Positions 2,701 through 60,761 of a DNA stretch of 64,000 nucleotides are shown here, in pieces; the first letter of the stretch is position 1, and the number at the start of each line of letters is the position of its first letter. Below the pieces are notes generated by a model. That model searched no databases and had not been told where the DNA came from. It was given only the letters and a program-made list of their open reading frames with translations. A program made the position numbers and the translations under genes. The DNA is from an uncultured Armatimonadota bacterium (lineage in GTDB: Bacteria > Armatimonadota > Fimbriimonadia > Fimbriimonadales > Fimbriimonadaceae): the NCBI GenBank assembly GCA_903927025.1, contig CAIYLG010000014.1, positions 186,001-250,000 on the forward strand. Direction: 5' to 3'.

Positions 2701-5532
2701 ATGTCCAACGGCTCTTCTCCTCTATTGCGGATCCTAGCACTGGTCTGCCTTGGCTCGACGGTCGCGCTGAGTTCTGCTCAGCTTGCATCCTCGGCTTGGC
2801 CAAAGTTTCGTGGCAATTCCGCTAACAGTGGGTTGAGCACGGCTGGCGGGGCTACAAGCACCGTAAAGTGGTCCTACAGCTTTGGGGCTGGCAATGAAGT
2901 CCTTTCGAGCCCAGCACTTGGTGTAGATGGAACTATCTACATTGGAGCCACGGACGGAAACGTTTACGCGATCGATCCCAAGACCTCTAAGTCGAAGTGG
3001 ACCTTCTCGACTGGAAACATCATTCTGAGCTCCCCTGTTGTGGGGTCGGACGGCACGGTCTATATTGGATCGGACGATGCCTTCGTCTACGCCATTGATC
3101 CGACGACTGGCAAGAAGAAGTGGTCGTTCAAAACCGGTGGTGCCATTGAGTCTGGCTTAGCGATCTCGAAGACCGGGACACTCTACGTAACAAGCCAAGA
3201 CGGCAAGCTGTACGCCTTTACGGCTTCAACTGGGGCACCGCTTTGGAACTACCCAACCAGTCCTGGTCTAACGTCGAGTCCGGCGGTTGATGCAAACGGA
3301 AACGTTTATTTTGGTTCCTTCTCTGGCAACGTGATTGCACTCACATCAACCGGAAGCCCACTATGGGCGACCTCTGCAGGCGGACAGATCTATTCGTCTC
3401 CCGCGATCTCGGCTGATGGGAAAACACTGTTCATTGGGTCCAATGATAGCCACCTCCACGCATACTCAACCGCGACTGGAGTTCAGCTGTGGTCAGCTGT
3501 AACGACCGGTGCGATCCAAGCAAGTCCAGCCATTGGTGCCGATGGGACGGTTTACGTTGGATCTCTGGATCGGAATTTTTACGCGTTCAACCCGACTACC
3601 GGAGCCATCCTTTGGCACTACACCACTGGCGATCAGGTTGTCTCATCGGCAGCGATTGGATCCGACGGGACGGTTTACTTTGGCTCGGACGACTCATACG
3701 TCTATGCCTTGAACGGTGCAACAGGCGCACACCTTTGGTCGTACCAGACCGGAGACTTTGCGACCAACTCACTTGCAATCGCGGCAGACGGCACCCTTTA
3801 TGCCGGCTCCAATGACTCCAGCCTTTACGCGTTTGCGAGCAGCTCGCTTGCCTCTGTCTCAGTAAGCCCCGCCTCAGTCACCGGTGGCTCAAGTTCGACG
3901 GGTACCGTGTCGATCACAGGTCTTGCTCCAACGGGCGGCCTTTCTGTATCACTCCAGAGCAGCCTGGCAAGCGTGACTGTTCCTGCTACAGCTGTCATCG
4001 CGACCGGCGCATCTTCTGCGACGTTTACGGTTCAGACATCACCCGTCGCAGCCTCGACTGCCGTCACCCTGACTGCATCGGTCCAGGGAGCCTCCAAGAC
4101 CACGACGCTAACCGTGGTACCGCCCACTTTGGCCTCGCTCTCAGTGACACCCTCCACCGTCACGGGTGGCACCGATGTTGCCGCGACATTGACCTTGAAT
4201 GCGCCTGCTCCAGTTGGCGGAACGACTGTATCGCTTTCGGGCAGTGTGTCGGCGATTGCGCCGCCAACCTCAGTGGTGGTTTTGGCAGGGCAAACATCCG
4301 TCAACTTTACTGTTTCAACGAATCCAGTTGGTTCGCAAGCCTCCTCCACACTGACTGCAACCCTCGGAAATGCAACGAAGACAGCCACCATTACGGTGAA
4401 TTCTCCTGTGTTCACTTCGATCAAACTCAACCAAACCTACCTCGTTGGTGGGAACGGAACTTCGGGTGCGGTGAATCTCTCTGGACCAGCGCCTGGGGGA
4501 GGCATCGTCGTTCACCTGTCCAGCAGCAGCACTTCGTTGACGGTTCCTTCGACTGTCACAGTTTCTCCAGGTCAGGTGTCCGGGATCTTCGTAGTCGGAA
4601 CGTCCACCGTCACCAAGTCTCAGTCGGTCACGATTACCGGTACCGTGGGCACCACTCAACAAACGGCTCAGGCGAGTGTGAACCCGCTCGGCCTCGGAAC
4701 TATCAGCGTCAGTCCGACTACTGTGAACGGAGGCGCTTCCGCTTCCGGAACCGTGACTTTGAACGGTGCCGCTCCAAAGGGTGGGTTTGTCCTCAAATTG
4801 GCAAGTTCATCCAAGTCGGTAACAGTTCCTGCTTCGCTTACGATTCCCGCCGGATCGACGTCAGGGACATTTTCCGTCAAGACGGCAGCGGTTTCATCCA
4901 GCACCGTATCCCTGCTGACCGCGACTCTGAACGGGATCACGGCCACTGCCTCTCTGACGGTAAATTCACCGATTCTTCAGTCGATCGTGCTGAACCCAAC
5001 TTCTGTGGTAGGTGGTGTGGCTTCGACGGGAACAGTGACCATCAGTTCCATTGCGGGGGCAGGTGGATATGTTGTCAAGCTCGCTTCCGGTCTCACTGGC
5101 GTCACTCTGCCAGCATCCGTAACGATTCCAGCGGGCAAGACTTCTGCGAACTTCGCCGTCAAATCGTCTCCAGTGAAGACTGTCTCGACGGCGTCGATAA
5201 CAGCAACAGCAGGTGGTGCGACGCTAAAGGCAACTCTGACCGTGAATCCGGTTAGCATCCTTTCCATCACCCTTGCACCAGCATCTGTGAAGGGAGGTGC
5301 TTCATCCACGGCGACTCTGAAATTGACTGGAGTGGCGCCCACTGGAGGCTTGGTCGTGACGCTGTCCAGCAACCTTTCCTCTGCCACAGTGCCGGCTACA
5401 GTGACGATCGCCGCAGGGCGAACATCGGGCGTCTTCACGGTAAAGACAGTAAAGGTGACATCCAAGTCGACTGCGACTATTTCTGCCGCGGCAAACTCGA
5501 CGACGAAGACCGCTCAGCTCACGATATCGTGA
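2701..5532 (+). CDS. Secreted PQQ-type beta-propeller with six Ig-like repeats
   Basis: 943 residues. A signal peptide ends near ALSSAQ (about residue 26). Residues ~30-380 contain about eight blades with the PQQ-like pattern DGTVYIGSDD...VYAID..TGKKKW, typical of PQQ-dependent-enzyme-like propellers (YncE/BamB style). PQQ-binding catalytic residues are not evident, so a structural or binding role is more likely than an enzyme. Residues ~384-943 hold six Ig-like repeats of about 93 residues, each opening with a V-x-P-x-x-V-x-GG motif and containing 'TVPA.VTI.AG.TS..F'. The final strand ends TAQLTIS. GAGG lies shortly before the ATG. It is the first of three tandem paralogues (2701, 5637, 8730). 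Surface adhesion or matrix function is inference. Confidence 0.8.
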   Translation: MSNGSSPLLRILALVCLGSTVALSSAQLASSAWPKFRGNSANSGLSTAGGATSTVKWSYSFGAGNEVLSSPALGVDGTIYIGATDGNVYAIDPKTSKSKWTFSTGNIILSSPVVGSDGTVYIGSDDAFVYAIDPTTGKKKWSFKTGGAIESGLAISKTGTLYVTSQDGKLYAFTASTGAPLWNYPTSPGLTSSPAVDANGNVYFGSFSGNVIALTSTGSPLWATSAGGQIYSSPAISADGKTLFIGSNDSHLHAYSTATGVQLWSAVTTGAIQASPAIGADGTVYVGSLDRNFYAFNPTTGAILWHYTTGDQVVSSAAIGSDGTVYFGSDDSYVYALNGATGAHLWSYQTGDFATNSLAIAADGTLYAGSNDSSLYAFASSSLASVSVSPASVTGGSSSTGTVSITGLAPTGGLSVSLQSSLASVTVPATAVIATGASSATFTVQTSPVAASTAVTLTASVQGASKTTTLTVVPPTLASLSVTPSTVTGGTDVAATLTLNAPAPVGGTTVSLSGSVSAIAPPTSVVVLAGQTSVNFTVSTNPVGSQASSTLTATLGNATKTATITVNSPVFTSIKLNQTYLVGGNGTSGAVNLSGPAPGGGIVVHLSSSSTSLTVPSTVTVSPGQVSGIFVVGTSTVTKSQSVTITGTVGTTQQTAQASVNPLGLGTISVSPTTVNGGASASGTVTLNGAAPKGGFVLKLASSSKSVTVPASLTIPAGSTSGTFSVKTAAVSSSTVSLLTATLNGITATASLTVNSPILQSIVLNPTSVVGGVASTGTVTISSIAGAGGYVVKLASGLTGVTLPASVTIPAGKTSANFAVKSSPVKTVSTASITATAGGATLKATLTVNPVSILSITLAPASVKGGASSTATLKLTGVAPTGGLVVTLSSNLSSATVPATVTIAAGRTSGVFTVKTVKVTSKSTATISAAANSTTKTAQLTIS

Positions 5533-5538: not shown

Positions 5539-5623
5539 TCCAGCAACATGGCACTTTCAGCGCTCTTACTCGCTGAGTTGGGCTGGTAGGGCGTTTGCAA
5601 CACAAGCAAACTAGGCGCAGTGT

Positions 5624-5629
5624 TATACT
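5624..5629 (+). promoter_or_regulatory. -10 box TATACT of the second propeller gene
   Basis: TATACT is followed by 7 bases (TCGGCCG) and the ATG at 5637. The same box, spacer and start context are repeated at 8717-8730 before the third paralogue, which supports both the promoter and the start choice. Confidence 0.6.
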
Positions 5630-5636
5630 TCGGCCG

Positions 5637-8564
5637 ATGGCACCGTGTTTGCGCCCGGACGATTCGTCGGGCATCTCGAATCAGCGACGATCTCGTCCAG
5701 TTTCCGTTTATTCGATTGGAAAGCATGTGCGTTTGGTCGCCATTGCCGCAGTCGCAGTTTTGCCGATTGTTTCCTTTGCCCAGTTGGCGAATTCCGCCTG
5801 GCCCAAGTTCTTGGGAAGTGCTCAGAACACCTCCCAGGGGCTCGGCCAGGGAGCTACGAAAACTGTAAAGTGGACCTTTAGCGCTCAGGCGCCCGTTTAC
5901 ACTTCGCCATCTATCGGCCCCGATGGAACTCTCTACGTCGGTTCGGACGATTACAACGTCTACGCTCTTGACCCTGGAACGGGTGCAGTGAAGTGGACCT
6001 TCGCGACCCAAAGCTATGTGGAGTCCTCCCCTGCTGTTGGTTCGGATGGAACCGTCTACGTTGGGTCGAGCGATAACTCCATCTACGCGATCAATGGCAA
6101 AACGGGTGCCCTTATCTGGTCGTACGCGACCGCTGGGTTTATTGATGCATCCCCAACGATTGGCCAAGGCGGAACGGTCTACGTTGGCTCAACCGACAGC
6201 AACCTTTACGCACTCAATGGAGCCACGGGGAAGGTCCTTTGGCAGTTCGGCACTCAAGGCGCTGTCGAATCGACTCCCGCGATTGGCTTAGACGGGACGA
6301 TCTATTTCGGTTCGGACGATGGCAACGTTTATGCCCTGGATGGTAAGACTGGTGTGCTGCAGTGGTCGTACGCCCTTCAGGTGCCAGTGTTCAATTCTGT
6401 CAGTCTTGGTCCAGACGGCACCGTCTATGTTGGCGCGGATGCGGTGTACGCGCTAACGGGGAACTCCACAGCAGTCCCAACCCTGCAGTGGACGCAGAAC
6501 TACGGATTCGACGTCACCAGCCCAATCTCCATTACGAGCAACGGCAACCTTGTCGTGGCAACCGCTGATGGTGGGGTTCGATACCTCGCTGGGAATGGAA
6601 CCCAGAAATGGATCTATCAGAGTCCGGGCGGCCTGTACGAAGGCGCTCCGACGATCGGTTCAGACGGAACCATCTACCTCGCCAGCGATGCGGGCATTCT
6701 TTCCGCAGTTTCCGCCACCGGAAATGAGCTTTGGACTTACACCGCACCTTCAGAAGTGTTTGGCTCTTCAAGCGTCATTAGTGCCGACGGAACACTCTTC
6801 TTAGGTGGCCTTTCTGGGAACCTTACAGCCTTTCAAGGTCTTGCCAAATTGGTTTCAATTTCGATCGCGCCCCAACAAGTTACTGGAGGGGTGAGCTCAG
6901 TCGGTACCGTCACATTGGGATCGATCTCTGCCGCAAGTGGGACGATCATTACGCTGTCGTCAAGCGACCCATCTGTCACGGTGCCCGCCTCAGTAACCGT
7001 TCCAGGCGGGGCCATTACGGCCACGTTTTCTCTAGGCACGAATCCAGTGCAGCAGACAGTGGCTTCAACGATAACTGCGGTGCTGAGGGACGTCACCAAG
7101 ACGGCGACGCTCACAGTCCTTCAACCTGTTCTTACGACGATCTCGCTGTCACCTACCGAAGTTGTGGGTGGAACATCATCCACGGGTACCGTGCTGCTTT
7201 CCGGTGCGGCGCCGGCGGGTGGGGAACTCGTCAGCTTGGCAACGAATAGCGGTGCCGCTTCGGTTCTGGCGTCTGTGACCGTCCCAGCAGGTTCGCAAGG
7301 GGCATCGTTTACGGTGCTCACGAGGTCGGTGACATCCGACACCAGTGTTTCCGTCTATGCCATTCTTGGGTCGGTTAGCCTCACCACGACACTGGTGGTG
7401 CATCAGCCTTACTTAGCGGCAGTCTCGGTTGCTCCCACATCCATCGTGGGAGGAAACACTGCATCTGGAACCGTGACTCTTTCTCGACCCGCACCCGTAG
7501 GTGGAATCTCGGTCTCTTTGTCTTCAACAAGTGGGGGCACCGTTCCTAGCACGCTGAACATTCCTAGTGGGAGTTCGAGCGCGACGTTCCCAATTCAGAC
7601 CGTTGGAGTGGCAACTAGTATTCCTGTAACTCTGACGGCAACGTTTGCCGGTGTTTCGCAATCGGCGAATCTCACTCTGACGGTGGCAAGGCTCGCTCAG
7701 GTGAGCGTCAATCCGAATCCGGCGGTAAGTGGAACAAGCCTGACTGGAACCGTTTTGTTGACCGGAAATGCCTCTCCGGCTGGAGTGACGGTGGCGCTCG
7801 TCGCTACTGGAAAGTATGTGTCGGTTCCCGCATCGGTCACGATTCCCGCTAACACGCCATCGACCACTTTTGCGGTGACGACCAAGGTTGCGACTGCGAA
7901 TCAGACGTCGACGATAAATGCCACCTCTGTCGGCGTCATCGTTTCGACGCTTCTGACGATCACGCCAAATGCTGAGGCTTCATTTACGATTGCCCCGGGT
8001 TCGGTTGTAGGCGGCTCTTCAACTGTCGCGACTGGAACGGTGACGTTCAATGGCCCCGCTCCCGGTGCCGGCGAGGCGATCAAGCTTGTGAGCTCTAATC
8101 CTAAGCTTGCGATTGTTCCGCCTTCGGTGAGGCTTCTTAGCGGCAAGACTTCGGTTGCCTTTGCTGTGGTTCACAAGCCTGTGGCCACTTCGACGACGGT
8201 TACGGTAACGGCAACGTACGGAACCAAGTCTCTTACTGCTAGCCTTACTCTGACTCCATTTGAGGTTCAGAGTCTTTCGATGTCTCCCTCGTCCGTTGCG
8301 CCCGGTAGCAAGTCGACGGGAACCGTAACGCTGAATGCGGCGCCGGGGACTTCAAGTGGTGCGATCCTGGTGAAGCTGTCTTCAAGTTCGAAGTCTGTAA
8401 CCGTGCCTTTGACGGTCTCGGTTCCGGTAGGCAAGACCAGCGGGACATTCCTTGCCAGCACCTCTGTGACGGCTGCGACGTCAACCGCCACGATCACTGC
8501 GACGTACGGATCCACATCGGCTCAGGCAACTCTGACGGTAGTGCCTCCACGACCGCCTCGGTGA
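5637..8564 (+). CDS. Secreted PQQ-type beta-propeller with six Ig-like repeats, C-terminus frameshifted
   Basis: 975 residues from the ATG at 5637. A longer TTG start at 5595 is possible, but it would place the conserved TATACT box inside the coding region. An unusually long N-region (about 30 residues, MAPCLRPDDSSG...) precedes a hydrophobic segment ending VSFAQ. The propeller covers ~50-400, with blades reading DGTVYVGS.DN..YA.NG.TG...W. Six Ig-like repeats follow. The last two are nearly identical in DNA to those of the gene at 54604. The protein ends abruptly at VPPRPPR: compared with that gene, one base is missing at about 8549-8551. This shifts the frame into a TGA, and a 57-bp remnant of a seventh repeat lies after the stop. 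The shortened protein may still be functional. Confidence 0.8.
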   Translation: MAPCLRPDDSSGISNQRRSRPVSVYSIGKHVRLVAIAAVAVLPIVSFAQLANSAWPKFLGSAQNTSQGLGQGATKTVKWTFSAQAPVYTSPSIGPDGTLYVGSDDYNVYALDPGTGAVKWTFATQSYVESSPAVGSDGTVYVGSSDNSIYAINGKTGALIWSYATAGFIDASPTIGQGGTVYVGSTDSNLYALNGATGKVLWQFGTQGAVESTPAIGLDGTIYFGSDDGNVYALDGKTGVLQWSYALQVPVFNSVSLGPDGTVYVGADAVYALTGNSTAVPTLQWTQNYGFDVTSPISITSNGNLVVATADGGVRYLAGNGTQKWIYQSPGGLYEGAPTIGSDGTIYLASDAGILSAVSATGNELWTYTAPSEVFGSSSVISADGTLFLGGLSGNLTAFQGLAKLVSISIAPQQVTGGVSSVGTVTLGSISAASGTIITLSSSDPSVTVPASVTVPGGAITATFSLGTNPVQQTVASTITAVLRDVTKTATLTVLQPVLTTISLSPTEVVGGTSSTGTVLLSGAAPAGGELVSLATNSGAASVLASVTVPAGSQGASFTVLTRSVTSDTSVSVYAILGSVSLTTTLVVHQPYLAAVSVAPTSIVGGNTASGTVTLSRPAPVGGISVSLSSTSGGTVPSTLNIPSGSSSATFPIQTVGVATSIPVTLTATFAGVSQSANLTLTVARLAQVSVNPNPAVSGTSLTGTVLLTGNASPAGVTVALVATGKYVSVPASVTIPANTPSTTFAVTTKVATANQTSTINATSVGVIVSTLLTITPNAEASFTIAPGSVVGGSSTVATGTVTFNGPAPGAGEAIKLVSSNPKLAIVPPSVRLLSGKTSVAFAVVHKPVATSTTVTVTATYGTKSLTASLTLTPFEVQSLSMSPSSVAPGSKSTGTVTLNAAPGTSSGAILVKLSSSSKSVTVPLTVSVPVGKTSGTFLASTSVTAATSTATITATYGSTSAQATLTVVPPRPPR

Positions 8565-8631: not shown

Positions 8632-8716
8632 CCCAGCAATTTGGTCCTTTCGGCGAAGTTCTGCATTGATTTGAAGAGCCGGTAGCCTTACGATACACGT
8701 GACTCTGAGTGAGTGT

Positions 8717-8722
8717 TATACT
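8717..8722 (+). promoter_or_regulatory. -10 box TATACT of the third propeller gene
   Basis: TATACT, then 7 bases (TCGGCCG), then ATG at 8730. The context from GTGTTATA through the start codon is the same as at 5621-5639. Confidence 0.6.
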
Positions 8723-8729
8723 TCGGCCG

Positions 8730-11342
8730 ATGGCAACGTGTGTGCGCCCGGACGTGACGTCGGGCATTGTGGATCAGCGACAATTTCGACTCTTCTCCCC
8801 TCGCTTCCTTAGTCAACACGCCCGATTGCTGGCTGTTGCGGCGGTAGCGCTCTTGCCGCTAGTTGCCTGTGCTCAATTGGCGAACACTGCTTGGCCCAAG
8901 TTCCTAGGGAACGCCCAGAACACTTCGCAAGGACAAGGTCAGGGCGCAACAAACAGCGTCAAGTGGACTTTCACTGCGCAGGCCCCTATTTACACGGCGC
9001 CATCCATCGGAGCAGACGGTACCGTTTATGTCGGCTCGGACGACTTTAACGTCTATGCGCTCAATCCGGCGACAGGTGCGGTGAAATGGACGTTCGCCAC
9101 TCAGAGCTATGTAGAGTCATCACCCGCTATCGGTTCTGACGGTACCGTCTATGTAGGTTCAGACGACAACAATCTGTACGCGCTGAACGGATCGACTGGA
9201 GTCGTTAAGTGGTCCTTCGGAACTACGTCGTTTATTGATGCTTCTCCTTGCATCGGTCCAGATGGAACCGTTTATGTTGGCTCGACCGATGGCAATCTCT
9301 ACGCACTCAACGGTGCAACTGGGGCGCTCCTCTGGAAGTTCGGCACTCAGGGTGCGGTTGAGTCCTCTCCCGCGCTCGGAGCAGATGGAACTGTCTACTT
9401 TGGCTCTGATGATGGAAACGTCTACGCCTTGGTTGGGAAGACTGGGGCCCTCAAGTGGTCCTATGCGCTCCAAGTGCCAGTCTTTAACTCGCCTAGCGTG
9501 GGTCCAGACGGAACCGTGTTTGTGGGCGCTGACGCAATCTATGCACTCGTTGGAAATGCGACCACCGTTCCGACAGTTAAGTGGACTTACAATTACGGTT
9601 ACGACGTCACCTGCCCGATCTCAATCACTTCAACCGGCTTTTTGGTTGTCGCAACTGCAGATGGCCAAGTGCGCTACCTCTCAACCAAGGGAGACCTTCA
9701 GTGGTTCTACCAAGGTGCCGGAGGTATCTATGAAGGAGCCCCATCCATCGGATCGGACGGTACGATCTACCTCGCGAGCGATGCCGGCATTCTTTCGGCA
9801 GTCTCGCCAACCGGAACGGAGATTTGGAACTACACCGCTCCCGCCGAAGTGTTTGGCTCTTCTGCCGTCATTAGTGGGAATGGCACGCTGTATCTTGGTG
9901 GGCTAAGCGGAAACCTTGTTGCCTTTCAGTCGCTAACTCCGCAGGCGCTGACGGTCGCTCCGTCTACGGTCGCAGGAGGTGTATCTGCAACTGGAACCGT
10001 TACTTTAAACCTACCAGCCACAGGGACCGGACTGGTCGTTACGCTTTCAAGCAGTAGCGCTGATGCGGTTGTTCCGGCTTCGGTCACCATACCGAGCGGC
10101 GCTATCACTGCCACATTCCAGATCACCACGAGTTCAGTTACGAAATCAGAGACGGTCACCCTCACCGCAGGTGTTGGAACTACTGCCGTGACAGGGACTG
10201 TAACGATCGTTCCCCCTGCTCTAACCGGCATCAGCTTCTCACCGGCGGCGGTGTCTGGCGGAACTTATGGAGTCGGCACGCTGACTCTAAACGGCCCTGC
10301 GCCCACCGGTGGTGTTACGGTTAGTTTGAAGAGCAGCGCAACCGCATATGTGACGGTTCCTGCGGTCGTCTTTATCGCCGCAGGAAAGTCATCTGTTACA
10401 TTCCAGGCTTCTACAACGGCAGTCACAGCCGCACACAGTTCAGTGGTGACTGCAACATACGGAACTGTCTCTGAAACGGCGACTTTGACTGTCAATCCGG
10501 CGACTTTGTCTGCATTCTCAGTGAGTCCCACCGTCCTTGCCGGTGGCAACACCGCAACTGGAACTGTCTCAATTACGGCTCCGGCAGCGATTGCCATCAC
10601 GATAAAGCTGTCAAGCGATACCAAGGCAGTGACGGTTCCGTTGAGTGTCGTGATCGCAAAAGGGAAGTCCACCGGGACGTTTACGATTCACACGGTTGCG
10701 GTGTCAGCGGCCACAACCGCAACGATTCAAGCCGGCATTGGAACGAGTGTTCTAACCAGCAAACTCACCGTGACGGCACCGAGCCTAGCTTCGCTCACTT
10801 TTGCGGCCAAATCGGTTGTTGGCGGAATCTCCGACACAGGAACGGTCAAATTGACTGGACCAGCAGGTTCCGGCGGCATGACGGTCGGACTCGTGAGCTC
10901 CACTTCGTCCGCAACGGTGCCGGCGACTGTGAAGGTGCCGCAGGGCGCGCTGTCAACCACGTTTGTCGCTAAGACGATTGCGGTAGCGACCAACGTTGCG
11001 GCAACTGTGACGGCATCTCTAAACGACACAACAGTTCAAGGCTCTTTCACCATCACTGCTCCAACGGTTAAAGCACTTGTTCTTGCTCCGCCAACCGTAA
11101 AGGGAGGGAAGTCTGTAACCGGCACGGTGACAATCTCATCGGCCGCACCTGCAGCCGGCCTGACTCTTACACTGGCGAGCGATTCTGGTTCGGCAACGTT
11201 GCCAAAGACGCTTGTCATTCCAGCAGGCAAGCTGATTGGAACGTTCAAGATCGCTACCACCGCCGTCACCGCGAAGACGGTGGCAAACATCTCTGCTGGT
11301 GTAAACGCATCGAGCAAGTCAGCCAAACTCACCATTAGCTGA
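8730..11342 (+). CDS. Secreted PQQ-type beta-propeller with five Ig-like repeats
   Basis: 870 residues from the ATG at 8730. A GTG at 8709 is in frame but would include the -10 box. The N-region MATCVRPDVTSGI parallels that of the gene at 5637, and the hydrophobic segment ends LVACAQ. The propeller (~45-400) is closely similar to its neighbour, including the SYVESSPAIGSDGTVYVGSD blades and the EVFGSSAVIS blade near the end. The Ig-like repeats (five) are more diverged than the propellers, so tails evolve separately from heads. The last repeat ends SAKLTIS, like that of the 2701 gene, so this copy is not truncated. A strong hairpin follows. The substrate or partner is unknown; an exported, surface-exposed location is inferred. 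Confidence 0.8.
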   Translation: MATCVRPDVTSGIVDQRQFRLFSPRFLSQHARLLAVAAVALLPLVACAQLANTAWPKFLGNAQNTSQGQGQGATNSVKWTFTAQAPIYTAPSIGADGTVYVGSDDFNVYALNPATGAVKWTFATQSYVESSPAIGSDGTVYVGSDDNNLYALNGSTGVVKWSFGTTSFIDASPCIGPDGTVYVGSTDGNLYALNGATGALLWKFGTQGAVESSPALGADGTVYFGSDDGNVYALVGKTGALKWSYALQVPVFNSPSVGPDGTVFVGADAIYALVGNATTVPTVKWTYNYGYDVTCPISITSTGFLVVATADGQVRYLSTKGDLQWFYQGAGGIYEGAPSIGSDGTIYLASDAGILSAVSPTGTEIWNYTAPAEVFGSSAVISGNGTLYLGGLSGNLVAFQSLTPQALTVAPSTVAGGVSATGTVTLNLPATGTGLVVTLSSSSADAVVPASVTIPSGAITATFQITTSSVTKSETVTLTAGVGTTAVTGTVTIVPPALTGISFSPAAVSGGTYGVGTLTLNGPAPTGGVTVSLKSSATAYVTVPAVVFIAAGKSSVTFQASTTAVTAAHSSVVTATYGTVSETATLTVNPATLSAFSVSPTVLAGGNTATGTVSITAPAAIAITIKLSSDTKAVTVPLSVVIAKGKSTGTFTIHTVAVSAATTATIQAGIGTSVLTSKLTVTAPSLASLTFAAKSVVGGISDTGTVKLTGPAGSGGMTVGLVSSTSSATVPATVKVPQGALSTTFVAKTIAVATNVAATVTASLNDTTVQGSFTITAPTVKALVLAPPTVKGGKSVTGTVTISSAAPAAGLTLTLASDSGSATLPKTLVIPAGKLIGTFKIATTAVTAKTVANISAGVNASSKSAKLTIS

Positions 11343-54515: not shown

Positions 54516-54605
54516 TCACACGGAATCCGGTGACACGGGCTTCTCAAAGTCGTAGACTGTTGGAATCTTCTTACGCAGCGTCGCGTCTGCCCGGTTTTCA
54601 CTCAT
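54516..54605 (-). CDS. Possible 29-codon ORF divergent from the Kelch gene
   Basis: ATG at 54605, preceded by GAAGG at 6 bases, then 29 codons (begins MSENRADATLRKKIPTVYDF, ends VSPDSV) and TGA. The start overlaps the ATG of the Kelch gene on the other strand (CATG). Composition looks protein-like and the ribosome-binding site is good. Chance cannot be excluded at this length. Confidence 0.3.
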   Translation of the reverse strand: MSENRADATLRKKIPTVYDFEKPVSPDSV

Positions 54606-57600
54606 GTTTAACCTTCGTAGAGTTCTCCTACTTGCAGTGATCTTTATCTCTGTGTTTGTATCAATTCCTGCTTTCGGGCAGTCCTGGACACCCGTTAATA
54701 ATGTTCCGGGCATTAGTGCCTACAACCCCACACTGCTGACGGATGGCTCAGTGATGATCCAGGACGGGGACAATTCTGTGTGGTGGAAGCTCACGCCGGA
54801 CAACAACGGTAACTACGCAAACGGCACTTGGACCCAGCTGTCCGCACCTGACAATTACGGTCCGCTGTACTACGCTTCCGCAGTGCTCCCGGACGGCCGG
54901 GTATTCACGATGGGTGGTGAGTACAACATGGGGCAGGGACCGCTCTGGCAGAACCAAGGCTTCATCTACGACCCTATGTCCGATACATGGACCCAAATCT
55001 CGGCGCCTGCTGGATGGGACCAGATTGGTGATATGGGATGCGTGACGCTGCCCAATGGCAAGGTGATGATCTGCAACCCGCTTAGCAACCAGGCGGCCTT
55101 GTTTGATCCTGTCACCAACACCATTACATCTCCGTACGGCTCGGGCAAAGCGGATGGGAATGATGAAGAAGGTTTGACTCTGTTGCCGAATGGCACGATC
55201 CTCACCGTCGATACCACTCCGAACAATTCAGAGATTTTTAACCCCGCGACTGGGTTGTGGACTTCTGCAGGTCAGACTCCAGCGACTCTAGTGGGAGGTG
55301 GTGAAGAGATTGGACCACAGGTTCTGCGACCGGATGGCACTGTCATCTGCTTCGGCGGTGGCGGCCACAACTGCGTTTACGATACAAAGACCGGAACTTG
55401 GTCAGTAGCCCCTGATTTTCCCAACGGGTTGGACTGTGCGGACGCGCCTGCGTGCCTTTTGCCCAACGGAAAGGTGCTCGTTATGGCTGCTCCAGGCCTG
55501 TTTGGATCTGGAGTTCAATTCTTCGAGTGGGATGGCACAAACCTTAATCCTGCTCCAACTACGGACAATGCTCCGTTTGAGCCGTCTTTTGTGGGCAACA
55601 TGCTCATGCTGCCGAGCGGACAGGTGCTCCTCACTGATCAGTCCAACACCATTCTTCTCTACACGCCTACGGGAAGTGCCGACCCTTCATGGGCACCCAC
55701 GATCACGAATTATCCCAGTGTCGTAGCTTCCGGCTTTTCCTTCCAAATCTTTGGAACGCAGTTCAACGGTCTATCCACCTGTTCAGCGTACGGAGACGAC
55801 GAGGAGAACTTCACGAACTATCCGATGATTCGGATCACGAACAAGGCGACCGGGCACGTGTTCTATTGCCGCGAGTTCAATCCGAGCACGATGGCAATCT
55901 GTACTGGTAGCCAGACGGTGAACACCAACTTTACGGTGCCCGACAATATCGAGCTTGGTGCCTCAACGATTCAAGTAGTCACGAATGGAATTGCGTCCGC
56001 ACCAAAGGACATTACCGTTGCGAAATCGCTCCAGCTGTCAATTTCGCCGAATGTCGTTCCAGGTGGTTCGAGTTCCACAGGAACTGTCACCTACTTTGAG
56101 CCTGCACCGGCCGGTGGAGTGACTCTGAAGGTCGTCTCAGATACTTCTTTGGCCACGGTCCCAGCAACGATCACGATTCCTTCTGGGGCTTCAGTAGCTA
56201 CATTCGCGATCGCCACCGCAACAACCACAAGCTCCTACGTTGCGAACATCACCTGCAGTCAAGGAACTGCAAAGGTGACGGCGGCCATTAATGTATTTGG
56301 TGTCGCTTCGATCGCTTTCTCACCCGGCTCCGTTTCTGGTGGAAACACCTCAACCGGTACGGTGACCTTGGGAACAGCCGCCCCGGCTGGCGGTGTGTCG
56401 ATAAGCTTGAGCAGCAATTCAGCGACGGTTACCGTGCCTGGATCCGTGACAATTCCAGCAGGCGCAACTTCGGCAACCATCACGGCAACAACCCAACCGG
56501 TTGCTGCGACCGTGAACGCCACGATCAGTGCAACTCTCGGGAACACTGTGACGGGCGGCCTCACAGTGACCCCTGCAACCCTAACTTCGATCGCACTCGC
56601 ACCGCCACAGGTGGTTGGAGGCGTTAATTCTGTAGGGACAGTTACCCTGGGATCGGTATCGGTGGCAGGAGGAACTGTCATCGGTTTGACATCCAGTGAC
56701 CCTTCTGTGACCGTTCCTGCCTCCGTTACTGTGCCGGGCGGAGCAACCTCAGCAACATTTACAATCGCCACAACGCCAATTCAGCAGACGTTGACATCCA
56801 CCATTACCGCAAGTCAGGGGACGGTCTCTAAGACGGCAACTCTGACCGTGCTTCAACCCGCTTTGACGACGATATCCGTCTCGCCAAATGCGGTCGTGGG
56901 CGGGGTGTCTTCGACGGGAACAGTGGTCCTGTCTGGTGCCGCACCGCAGGGTGGGGAAGTCGTCGCGCTATCCTCGAACAGTGGGTCGGCCTCCGTGCTT
57001 GCGTCGGTGACTGTTCCAGCCGGATCGAAGAGCGCAACCTTCACGGTGCTCACCAAGTCGGTGACGTCCGATACAAATGTTTCGATCACGGGCATCTTGG
57101 GAACGGTGAGCCTGAGCGCCACGCTTACTGTTCAAAAGCCATACCTGGCTAGCGTTTCAATAGCACCTTCGTCCATCATCGGTGGGAATACGGCAACGGG
57201 AACGGTTACCCTCGCAAGAGCCGCTCCAGCTGGAGGCATTGTGGTTTCTCTGTCCGTGGATGCTGGTGCCACGGTCCCCAGTACGCTAACCGTTCCGGTG
57301 GGAGCGTCTAGCGCCACTTTCCCAGTCCAAACATTTGGGGTTGCCATAAAATCAGTGGTCACTGTGACCGCATCGACGGTTGGGGTTTCGCTCTCTGCCA
57401 GTGTTACTGTCACGGTGGCTAGCCTCGGTCAAGTGACGGTCAATCCTAATCCAGCAGTAGGGGGAACAAGCCCAGTTGGGACTGCTTCCTTGAACGGGAC
57501 TTCGCCAACAGATACCAAGGTTGCACTTGTGGCAACCGGAACTTACGCGTCTGTTCCCGCAACGGTCACGATTCCTGCGAACACGCCATCGACCACTTTT

Positions 57601-58569
57601 GCGGTGACCACCAAGGTTGTGACTGCGAATCAGACGTCCACGATCAATGCCACGGCAGGTGGCGTCATCGTTTCGACTCTTCTGACGATCACTCCAAATG
57701 CTGAGGCTTCATTTACAATTGCCCCGGGTTCGGTTGTGGGCGGCTCTTCAACTGTCGCGACTGGAACGGTGACGTTCAATGGCCCCGCTCCCGGTGCCGG
57801 CGAGGCGATCAAGCTTGTAAGCTCTAATCCCAAGCTGGCGATTGTTCCGCCTTCGGTGAGGCTTCTGAGCGGCAAGACTTCGGTTGCCTTTGCTGTGGTT
57901 CACAAGCCTGTAACCTCTTCGACGACGGTTACGGTAACGGCAACATACGGCACTAAGTCTCTGACTGCCAGCATCACTCTGACTCCGTTTGAAGTTCAGA
58001 GCGTTTCGATGTCTCCTTCATCGGTTACCGGTGGTGGCAAGTCGACGGGAACGGTAACGCTGAATGCGGCGCCGGGGACTTCGAGCGGTGCGATCCTGGT
58101 GAAGCTGTCTTCAAGCTCGAAGTCTGTAACCGTGCCTTTGACGGTCTCGATTCCGGTAGGCAAGACCAGCGGGACATTCCTTGCCAGCACCTCTGTGACG
58201 GCCGCGACGTCAACCGCCACGATCACGGCGACTTACGGATCCACATCGGCTCAGGCAACTCTGACGGTGGTGCCTCCAACGATCTCCTCGCTGAGCGTCT
58301 CTCCAACTTCGGTGAAGGGAAGCTCTGCTGCGGCTGTAACAGGCACAGTGACCTTGTCTGGTGTTGCTCCCACCGGTGGAGTGGTGGTTTCGCTCAGCAG
58401 CTCTGCCGCGAATGCCGGATCGGTACCGGCCAGCGTCACGGTTCCAGCAGGCAAGTCGACGGTTACGTTCAAAGTCAGCCACTCTGCGGTCACTGCGCAG
58501 ACAGCGGTCACGATCTCGGGAACCACAGGCACGGTTACCAAGTCAGCCGTGCTCACGGTTAAGCCGTAA
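54604..58569 (+). CDS. Secreted Kelch/galactose-oxidase-like propeller with nine Ig-like repeats
   Basis: 1321 residues. The signal peptide ends IPAFGQ (about 26). Residues ~27-370 form a Kelch-type propeller (ASAVLPDGRVFTMGGEYN, LLPNGTILTVDTTPNNSEIFNPATGLW, LRPDGTVICFGGGGHN), and ~375-475 a domain like the C-terminal sandwich of galactose-oxidase relatives (QIFGTQFNGLSTCSAYGDDEEN...TNYPMIRIT). The copper ligands and Tyr-Cys cofactor of galactose oxidase are not evident. Nine Ig-like repeats follow. Six of them match, in order, those of the propeller at 5637, with near-identical DNA over the last ~600 bp. The head is thus different but the tail shared. No ribosome-binding site or close -10 box is seen before the ATG. 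Confidence 0.8.
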   Translation: MFNLRRVLLLAVIFISVFVSIPAFGQSWTPVNNVPGISAYNPTLLTDGSVMIQDGDNSVWWKLTPDNNGNYANGTWTQLSAPDNYGPLYYASAVLPDGRVFTMGGEYNMGQGPLWQNQGFIYDPMSDTWTQISAPAGWDQIGDMGCVTLPNGKVMICNPLSNQAALFDPVTNTITSPYGSGKADGNDEEGLTLLPNGTILTVDTTPNNSEIFNPATGLWTSAGQTPATLVGGGEEIGPQVLRPDGTVICFGGGGHNCVYDTKTGTWSVAPDFPNGLDCADAPACLLPNGKVLVMAAPGLFGSGVQFFEWDGTNLNPAPTTDNAPFEPSFVGNMLMLPSGQVLLTDQSNTILLYTPTGSADPSWAPTITNYPSVVASGFSFQIFGTQFNGLSTCSAYGDDEENFTNYPMIRITNKATGHVFYCREFNPSTMAICTGSQTVNTNFTVPDNIELGASTIQVVTNGIASAPKDITVAKSLQLSISPNVVPGGSSSTGTVTYFEPAPAGGVTLKVVSDTSLATVPATITIPSGASVATFAIATATTTSSYVANITCSQGTAKVTAAINVFGVASIAFSPGSVSGGNTSTGTVTLGTAAPAGGVSISLSSNSATVTVPGSVTIPAGATSATITATTQPVAATVNATISATLGNTVTGGLTVTPATLTSIALAPPQVVGGVNSVGTVTLGSVSVAGGTVIGLTSSDPSVTVPASVTVPGGATSATFTIATTPIQQTLTSTITASQGTVSKTATLTVLQPALTTISVSPNAVVGGVSSTGTVVLSGAAPQGGEVVALSSNSGSASVLASVTVPAGSKSATFTVLTKSVTSDTNVSITGILGTVSLSATLTVQKPYLASVSIAPSSIIGGNTATGTVTLARAAPAGGIVVSLSVDAGATVPSTLTVPVGASSATFPVQTFGVAIKSVVTVTASTVGVSLSASVTVTVASLGQVTVNPNPAVGGTSPVGTASLNGTSPTDTKVALVATGTYASVPATVTIPANTPSTTFAVTTKVVTANQTSTINATAGGVIVSTLLTITPNAEASFTIAPGSVVGGSSTVATGTVTFNGPAPGAGEAIKLVSSNPKLAIVPPSVRLLSGKTSVAFAVVHKPVTSSTTVTVTATYGTKSLTASITLTPFEVQSVSMSPSSVTGGGKSTGTVTLNAAPGTSSGAILVKLSSSSKSVTVPLTVSIPVGKTSGTFLASTSVTAATSTATITATYGSTSAQATLTVVPPTISSLSVSPTSVKGSSAAAVTGTVTLSGVAPTGGVVVSLSSSAANAGSVPASVTVPAGKSTVTFKVSHSAVTAQTAVTISGTTGTVTKSAVLTVKP

Positions 58570-58577
58570 GCCGGAAG

Positions 58578-58616
58578 GGTCTCTAAGCGCTAATTCTCTT
58601 TTGGCGCTTAGAGACC
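58578..58616. terminator. 13-bp perfect hairpin between convergent genes
   Basis: GGTCTCTAAGCGC and its exact complement GCGCTTAGAGACC flank a 13-base loop. The right arm contains the stop codon of the kinase gene (58608-58610). The T-rich loop but absent 3' T-run makes it a plausible bidirectional transcription barrier. Confidence 0.55.
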
Positions 58617-60761
58617 AAGATCGTTTGAGATTCGGATCGCCAAATCCTTGGCGGATACCGTGATGGTTTGGTCGCCGGAACTCAAGTGCGCCACCAATAC
58701 CACCGGATTGAGACCAAACGAGATGGTGTCCCTTTGCCCACTGAATTGAAGGTGGATGTCTGTCTCGTCTGCCCAAACTCCGACGACCGCATCGGTCGGT
58801 TGGCGCTTTTTCATGAAGATGCCCCCGTAGGTGATTTCTGAACGGTTGATGGAAAGGCTGATCACCTTTCCGTCTCCGTCCTTCACGGCGTTACCCTTCC
58901 AAAGCGTGTCTCCGCTGTCATCAAATGAAATTTTGCCTGTGTGATAGGCCTGACGTAAAACGATCTCCACCCGATCCGCAAAATCCTGTTCAGCGTGAAT
59001 GGTGGGTAGCCCCTTGGCGAGGCGGTGCCAGTCCTCCATGACCTTGGGCTCGCCAACGTGCTTTACGAGTCTGCGATTTGTCGTTGCGCTCAATCGCAGA
59101 TATTGTTGGTCTCGGTCAAATTCCGTAGTGCAGTGTTCGCACAATAGCCCCGGGTTTGGACTCGTTTTTCCTGCGCCCAGCCATCGAGCACTCTCCAAAT
59201 TGAGGAGGCGTCCAATGAACGCTTCGGAAAACCCATACGGATCTTCTGGAGCTCCTAGGAGAGTCAGATGCTCGCCTTCGAGGTAGTAGTCTGCCGCACA
59301 ACTGTCACAGTAAGCATTTCCCGAACCTGGTTCTAGTCCAGCGGCGACCCTTGCCCATTCCTCTGGATAAAGGGTCTTGTGTCCCTTTGGCGAAGGGCGA
59401 ATTTGTTGCCATCGACCATCGGATAGGACGTCGTATTGGGCAGTGCAATCACCACACACCCAAATTTGAGCTGAGCGCCCTAACTTATTCCTCCAGAAGT
59501 CGAATGGCTGAAAATCTTGATCCGCGTCCATTTTCGCCATTTGGTTCCCCTTGGTCTCAAACCGAGATTCGCAAGACTGGCAATTTGCGGCCTGATCAGT
59601 GGAGAGGATGGACTTTCGGCGATATTGGAGAATGCCGACTCCACAGGATGGGCAGAGTGCAATAGGGCTGAAATTCTTGACGAGCGACAGCACTCCAGAC
59701 TTGCAGGAAGGGCAGAGTCGCTCCTGAATGTCCCTACGCCTAACGTTTCCGTTACGGCAAACGGGGCATAGCTCTCGTCTCAGGGGTCGGGGTTCTGACA
59801 TAACCGCGTTGCAGACCGGACATCCCCTTCGGTCAAACGAGAACCGCTTGAGACGCACGAGGGTTTCATCAAGGTAGTCGAGCGAGTCATGCTCAGGAAC
59901 CTCTGGATCAGATTCGAGAAGGTCTCTAAACTCAGCTACGGTCTGCGGTCTTTCGCTGTAGCTCAGTGAAAGCGTCTGGGTAATGGCCCTTGCCACGATA
60001 GGGTCCAAGTCTGGCCGTAACTCGCCCAAATGTGGAAGGGACATCCCAGAGGCTCGCTCTGCAGAACTTGCTGGAGCAGATCCGGTCAGCAACGCAAAAA
60101 AGGTTGCCGCAAGGGCAAAGAGGTCTGTCGCAGGTCCGCGTCGCGCTCGTTCCGACATCTGTTCTGGTGGCGCGAAGCCTGGCGTGTAGAGAACTGTGTG
60201 CGTGGTTGTGGAGTCAGCATGCCACTCACGAGCCGCACCGAAGTCGATGAGAAACACTTCTCCATCCGACCTTACGAGGATGTTCGACGGCTTGATGTCA
60301 CGATGCAGGATCCTCTTTGCGTGAACGGCTTCTAGGACGACCAAGAGCCGATTGAGCTTGTCGATTGCATCATCGCAGGAAAGCGTCCCTGACGTCCTTA
60401 ACAGTTCATCCAATGTTTTGGAGTTGGGAATGTAATCTGTCGCAAAGTAGGCCGTTCCGTTTTCGCGAAACGTGGCGCGAATTGGTGGCACACCGGCAAG
60501 ATCAAATCGGCTGAGAAGGGCGGCCTCTTCCAGAAACTGCTCTCGAAGGCGGACCGCTTCAGATCCGTCAAATACCAGGAGGCCACTTGGTAGCCTTGGC
60601 GTCCCGATCGGAGCGAGTTCCTTGACAACCACAGAATCTCCGCGCGAAAGGTCAGTGCATAGGTACGCAATGCCAAATCCACCACGGCCCAGAACCTTTC
60701 GCAGTTCAAAGCGGTCGTTGAACCGGTATCCGGGGTCCAGTGGCCTCGGGTCAGAGGGCAT
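58608..60761 (-). CDS. Ser/Thr protein kinase with eight CxxC zinc-ribbon pairs
   Basis: 717 residues, no membrane helix. The Hanks-type kinase domain (about 15-285) is complete: G-loop GRGGFG (25-30), K47, HRDIKPSN (153-160), DFG (173-175), APPE (197-200). Then come CxxC pairs at 314/317, 332/335, 350/353, 370/373, 394/397, 436/439, 485/488 and 541/544, a chain of zinc ribbons. The C-terminal ~150 residues are alpha/beta with no recognised family. Kinases of this type phosphorylate Ser/Thr in signalling; the zinc section probably binds a partner or nucleic acid. TATATT is 5 bases before the ATG. Confidence 0.88.
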   Translation of the reverse strand: MPSDPRPLDPGYRFNDRFELRKVLGRGGFGIAYLCTDLSRGDSVVVKELAPIGTPRLPSGLLVFDGSEAVRLREQFLEEAALLSRFDLAGVPPIRATFRENGTAYFATDYIPNSKTLDELLRTSGTLSCDDAIDKLNRLLVVLEAVHAKRILHRDIKPSNILVRSDGEVFLIDFGAAREWHADSTTTHTVLYTPGFAPPEQMSERARRGPATDLFALAATFFALLTGSAPASSAERASGMSLPHLGELRPDLDPIVARAITQTLSLSYSERPQTVAEFRDLLESDPEVPEHDSLDYLDETLVRLKRFSFDRRGCPVCNAVMSEPRPLRRELCPVCRNGNVRRRDIQERLCPSCKSGVLSLVKNFSPIALCPSCGVGILQYRRKSILSTDQAANCQSCESRFETKGNQMAKMDADQDFQPFDFWRNKLGRSAQIWVCGDCTAQYDVLSDGRWQQIRPSPKGHKTLYPEEWARVAAGLEPGSGNAYCDSCAADYYLEGEHLTLLGAPEDPYGFSEAFIGRLLNLESARWLGAGKTSPNPGLLCEHCTTEFDRDQQYLRLSATTNRRLVKHVGEPKVMEDWHRLAKGLPTIHAEQDFADRVEIVLRQAYHTGKISFDDSGDTLWKGNAVKDGDGKVISLSINRSEITYGGIFMKKRQPTDAVVGVWADETDIHLQFSGQRDTISFGLNPVVLVAHLSSGDQTITVSAKDLAIRISNDLGL

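Follow-up and report, generated by a model that had tools for sequence, protein, structure and literature searches.

A Hanks-type Ser/Thr kinase of Armatimonadota with eight CxxC knuckles and a predicted PH-like domain, and the repeated decay of the kinase domain in its family

The kinases of the TerY-P triad are Ser/Thr kinases (STKs) with a C-terminal zinc ribbon, for which a role in metal sensing or nucleic-acid binding has been proposed (PMC11090510). In Synechocystis, the activity of SpkB is modulated by redox state via a Cys-rich N-terminal extension (PMC10651672), and in PknG the Rdx domain downregulates catalysis (PMC8546545). Neither zinc nor Armatimonadota appears in the text of a 2025 review on pseudokinase families in bacteria (PMC12599244). 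The Armatimonadota protein described here resembles each of these kinases in part. Like the TerY-P kinases, it is a soluble Ser/Thr kinase with a putative zinc-ribbon part at its C-terminal side; unlike them, it has eight knuckles and a predicted PH-like domain and is encoded without VWA or PP2C neighbors. It shares with SpkB the combination of a Hanks kinase and a Cys-rich extension, but the extension of SpkB is N-terminal, whereas the 230-residue chain found here is C-terminal. PknG, too, is soluble and combines a kinase with a metal domain, and it has a C-terminal docking domain that couples the signal to substrate choice (PMC8546545); however, its single metal domain lies on the N-terminal side, and its docking part is a TPR rather than a PH-like domain. 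The preliminary description of this DNA regarded the architecture as unrecognized. On the one hand, no family specific to the combination of a kinase, eight CxxC motifs, and a PH-like domain was found in Pfam or NCBIfam, no published description of this arrangement was found in the open-access literature, and the open-access papers searched did not yield the many kinases with a zinc-ribbon chain that would have made it familiar. On the other hand, kinases with a C-terminal zinc ribbon were already known. We regard the architecture as real and conserved; none of the sources searched describes it, although its general kind, a kinase plus a zinc ribbon, was known before.

The analyzed stretch of DNA, referred to here as the window, comprises 64,000 nucleotides (G000:C14:186001-250000) of a 5.25-Mb genome, the relatives of which were placed in Fimbriimonadales (Armatimonadota) by an alignment-based scan. 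The kinase gene is a stand-alone gene: a large secreted protein gene (54604-58569, plus strand) converges on it, and an M28 peptidase gene, followed by guaA (60878 onward, plus strand), diverges from it. Its features are as follows.

58608..60761, minus strand: whole gene for the kinase, putative zinc-knuckle tail, and predicted PH-like domain (717 aa, ATG start)
59892..60719, minus strand: Hanks-type Ser/Thr kinase domain, residues 15-290 (Pfam, fold match, motif table)
59604..59840, minus strand: A block, four CPxCxxGxL knuckles (C314/317, C332/335, C350/353, C370/373), net charge +10
59811..59822, minus strand: knuckle 1, CPVC 314-317; proposed partner knuckle 8, co-loss in L018, L086, and L092/L093
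59757..59768, minus strand: knuckle 2, CPVC 332-335; proposed partner knuckle 7, co-loss in L096
59703..59714, minus strand: knuckle 3, CPSC 350-353; never lost, partner knuckle 6 proposed by exclusion only
59643..59654, minus strand: knuckle 4, CPSC 370-373; proposed partner knuckle 5, co-loss in L040 and L042
58992..59603, minus strand: B block, four CxxCxAxF knuckles (C394/397, C436/439, C485/488, C541/544), net charge -6
59571..59582, minus strand: knuckle 5, CQSC 394-397; proposed partner knuckle 4
59445..59456, minus strand: knuckle 6, CGDC 436-439; proposed partner knuckle 3
59298..59309, minus strand: knuckle 7, CDSC 485-488; proposed partner knuckle 2
59130..59141, minus strand: knuckle 8, CEHC 541-544; proposed partner knuckle 1
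58617..58934, minus strand: predicted PH-like domain, residues 610-715 (fold match of the model)

The kinase domain matches the Pfam model PF00069 with an E-value of 1.2e-32 (113.8 bits; cut-off 31.7), and the catalytic residues are present in the window protein (K47, E79, H153-R154-D155, N160, and D173-F174-G175). The nearest kinase domain in the PDB is that of PpkA (5hnv, 5x1r), a type VI secretion kinase, at 32-33% identity (E 1.2e-36); the comparison concerns the kinase domain of PpkA only, on which the model superimposes with a VIA Z of 31.8 and an rmsd of 2.5 over 265 residues. Scores against NCBIfam kinase families were far below the cut-offs (MAD6, 114 bits vs. 460; PASTA kinase, 105 vs. 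450; PglW, 57 vs. 990). No membrane helix was suggested by hydropathy in the 717-aa protein, as the top 19-residue Kyte-Doolittle mean is 1.55 and falls within the kinase lobe. The open reading frame, the Pfam match, the motif count, and hydropathy all agree with the preliminary description of a soluble Ser/Thr kinase joined to eight CxxC pairs. The AlphaFold2 model of the whole chain, built with 22 relatives as input, has a pLDDT of 87; that of the tail alone, built with 46 relatives, has a pLDDT of 96 and a pTM of 0.79.

Sixteen of the 18 cysteines of the protein fall within the eight CxxC motifs, which start at residues 314, 332, 350, 370, 394, 436, 485, and 541; 20,000 composition shuffles contained 0.43 such motifs on average and never more than 5. 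From 314 to 544 the chain spans 231 residues, in line with an early estimate of about 230. The motifs had also been thought to be evenly repeated, but the gaps between successive motifs (18, 18, 20, 24, 42, 49, and 56 residues) widen toward the C terminus. Proline follows the first cysteine in 86-98% of sequences in knuckles 1-4 vs. 6-18% in knuckles 5-8, the consensus glycine of the A block is missing from knuckle 1, and a helix is predicted ahead of each of the last three knuckles of the B block (6, 7, and 8). According to single-comparison profile scores, which are rough, the A block consists of two homologous halves and the B block of four mutually homologous units. Known zinc-ribbon models score below their cut-offs (Zn_ribbon_6, 12.7-16.9 bits vs. 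25; DZR likewise). Weak matches to PHROG families (HNH endonuclease, Lar) were rejected, as they look like shared cysteines. Most likely, the eight knuckles bind four structural zinc ions.

In ordinary zinc ribbons, the CPxCxxGxL-type half comes first and the CxxCxAxF-type half second. Taken together with the order of the knuckles in the tail (AAAABBBB), this usual order suggests that the putative ribbons are nested within one another, pairing 1-8, 2-7, 3-6, and 4-5. The stretch comprising knuckles 4 and 5 has weak profile matches to the eL43 and TFIIB ribbons (E 0.03-0.4), and a 4-5 pair would leave three knuckles on each side, so that at least one site would have to cross over. Losses of cysteines among relatives bear on the same arrangement. 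Double losses affected knuckles 1 and 8 in L018 and again in the L086/L092/L093 group, knuckles 4 and 5 in the sisters L040 and L042, and knuckles 2 and 7 in L096; four nested double losses out of four occurred in 0.4% of shuffles in which losses per knuckle and per lineage were held. These amount to about four events, however, and knuckles 1 and 8 are the ends of the chain while 4 and 5 are neighbors; the only diagnostic double loss is that of 2 and 7, in a member that is degenerate and lies at the edge of a contig. Two cases count against nesting: in the g4 lineage (L028, L094, L095), knuckle 8 is short of one cysteine although knuckle 1 is complete, and in L073 knuckle 2 is short of one although knuckle 7 is complete. 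The pairing of 3 with 6 is proposed by exclusion alone. In the model, the strands after knuckles 2, 3, and 4 are 4, 6, and 6 residues long and those leading into knuckles 7, 6, and 5 are 3, 5, and 5, predicted lengths that fit nested pairing. Mean-field DCA and mutual information between knuckles (35-49 sequences) returned noise driven by gaps and lineages. If true, nested pairing would be an unusual way of constructing a long rigid arm out of repeated zinc ribbons, and the order of the ribbons would be readable from cysteine losses alone.

The C-terminal domain had been described as an alpha/beta domain of unknown type; the prediction is instead a PH-like beta-barrel with a helix. In the model, strands are predicted between residues 619 and 702 and a closing helix at 704-715, and the best fold match is a FERM F3/PH lobe (VIA Z 9.5, rmsd 2.3 over 83 residues). 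The best 50 VIA matches of the tail model are all of the PH, FERM F3, Rtt106, or SSRP1 type (Z 8.2-9.5) and so bear on this domain but hardly on the putative zinc part, and residues 610-715 are thus predicted, at moderate Z, to adopt the PH superfamily fold. Conservation within the family is lowest in this domain (median 26% identity). Its likeness to the bacterial bPH_6 and GRAM domains consists of the modeled PH fold and of profile matches that stay under the curated cut-offs: bPH_6 (PF10756) was detected below threshold in 6 of 46 relatives, scores of 16.8-17.5 bits vs. a cut-off of 22 were obtained in two relatives, and GRAM was detected below threshold in L072, while a Pfam search of the window protein gave no bPH_6 match.

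Profile searches identified the tail in 52 of 291 Armatimonadota genomes, mostly from the family to which the window belongs and one sister family. Full-length relatives are mostly 36-59% identical to the window protein, and a relative at 47% is encoded in a complete genome (G007, one contig of 5,231,762 bases). Three genomes from two other Armatimonadota families encode longer proteins (899-968 aa) with the parts in identical order; these outliers are 20-26% identical and keep 15-16 of the 16 cysteines, and two of them (L072 and L073) carry an extra N-terminal zinc ribbon. Most of the 51 relatives have all 16 cysteines, which stay almost invariant down to about 20-30% identity, and none of the aligned members has lost the tail; the homologs thus retain the cysteines, the loss of which would have spoken against the preliminary description. 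The alignment-based scan of GTDB found 22 loci, all in Armatimonadota, but did not pick up the three outliers recovered by the profile search within this phylum, so that distant relatives in other phyla may exist. A strict scan of GTDB genomes with a single sequence found no relatives, and the tail had no match in viral contigs or in phage and plasmid collections; plasmid matches of the whole protein were rejected as relatives because they cover kinase domains only. In the genus of the window, 8 of 20 genomes have the gene, and these are larger (median 5.2 vs. 3.25 Mb, p 0.003, with kinship ignored). In many genomes its neighbors are perM, mnmA, and a gene for a secreted protein; given this conserved place, the gene appears to be ancient, inherited vertically, and repeatedly lost.

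The kinase domain has fared differently from the tail. Of 48 scorable members, 12 have lost K47, D155, or D173, and several kinase motifs are gone in the L075/L088 and L028/L094/L095 groups. On a tree built from the tail alone, these losses require 6 state changes, of which well-supported branches force at least 3. In one incomplete assembly (G054, L043:1530-2858), a kinase-less open reading frame consists of the cysteine tail and the PH-like domain only, flanked by the same two genes as the full gene in L041/G052. Knuckles 1 and 8 are somewhat eroded in degenerate members. Since the tail was kept after the kinase decayed or where it is absent, the tail and the PH-like domain are likely to have a job of their own, which suggests that the tail is the main working part of the protein. 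A combined picture, in which four nested zinc ribbons form a ladder with 4-5 at its tip and the attached kinase decayed several times while the ladder and the PH-like domain were kept, appears to us about evenly balanced between right and wrong. Members with an active, degenerate, or absent kinase and a kept tail form a natural series for probing the non-catalytic part of a bacterial kinase, in a phylum where work on signaling is scarce.

Our best explanation, to which we give about even odds, is that the tail serves as a docking or scaffold module and that the kinase is dispensable. In this view, a rigid arm built with zinc and a PH-like domain would be attached to a soluble Hanks Ser/Thr kinase, all encoded by a single gene; knuckles 1-4 (CPxCxxGxL) would fold back against knuckles 5-8 (CxxCxAxF) to give four nested ribbons. 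The arm and the PH-like domain would dock the protein onto a partner protein or a membrane, and an intact kinase would phosphorylate a target held at the docking place. The gene neighborhoods contain no neighbor that indicates a docking partner.

It is rather unlikely that the tail is instead a redox or metal switch, in which oxidation or loss of metal from the CxxC pairs turns the attached kinase on or off. Such pairs are capable of acting as redox switches, the conserved tail directly follows the kinase, and there is precedent in the Cys-rich end of SpkB (PMC10651672) and the rubredoxin part of PknG (PMC8546545). However, members whose kinase is degenerate or absent still have the cysteines, which argues against a tail that solely switches the kinase in the same chain, and we have lowered a redox-only reading for this reason; moreover, a structural role is suggested by the near-invariance of sixteen cysteines within a scaffold that is predicted with confidence. 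Unlikely, too, is a kinase brought by a basic A block bound to RNA or DNA to ribosomes, transcription, or damaged DNA. Throughout the family the A block is strongly basic (median +11.4 charges per 100 aa), the 4-5 ribbon weakly resembles those of ribosomal eL43 and of TFIIB in profile comparisons, and nucleic-acid binding was suggested for the zinc ribbons of TerY-P kinases (PMC11090510). The B block is acidic, though (about -5 per 100 aa), and the tail near neutral overall, so that the charges fit A-B pairing within the protein equally well; the PH-like domain favors protein or lipid binding, and no genomic link to nucleic-acid systems was found at the neighborhoods examined. That the protein is the kinase of a TerY-P stress/defense triad is very improbable: TerY-P kinases do have a C-terminal zinc ribbon (PMC11090510) and the kinase domain scores well against PADLOC defense kinases such as PD-T4-6, but these scores reflect similarity of kinase domains in general, the neighbors are GuaA, an M28 peptidase, PerM, or a secreted protein rather than an adjacent TerY-like VWA or PP2C (both on other contigs in the window's genome), the nearest PP2C is about 9 kb away in only one of 21 genomes, and VWA-PP2C-kinase triads elsewhere in the same genomes use a different kinase with a single CxxC.

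Those triads are TerY-P-like arrangements in Armatimonadota in their own right: VWA-PP2C pairs adjoin an unrelated one-CxxC kinase at L103, L105, G019:C103, G025:C1, and G020:C1. Against the profile of the family described here, the triad kinases of the same genomes are remote (E 4e-5 to 5e-7). Another arrangement was seen in an outlying member (L071:5185-8088), which has a Cys-bearing insert inside the kinase domain (CPVCGRVFRGTRVCPEH) and a further set of CxxC motifs right after the kinase.

A smaller family of secreted proteins, about 260-340 aa in length, is encoded divergently from the kinase at 15 loci (L018:9221-10243, L030:2985-3761, and 13 more). The genome of the window, G004, and G019 lack it and have the M28 and guaA genes at that place. 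A functional link between the kinase and the divergent secreted protein was rejected, as the latter is present in 52 of 61 genomes irrespective of the kinase; the shared neighborhood therefore reads as common descent. The window also encodes four large secreted proteins with Ser/Thr-rich repeats in common (54604-58569, 2701-5532, 5595-8564, and 8709-11342, all on the plus strand). The 3' 1.5 kb of the first is 80% identical at the DNA level to the end of 5595-8564, and this copy lies between the kinase and perM in the window's genome only, the syntenic loci L029, L030, and L038 being without it.
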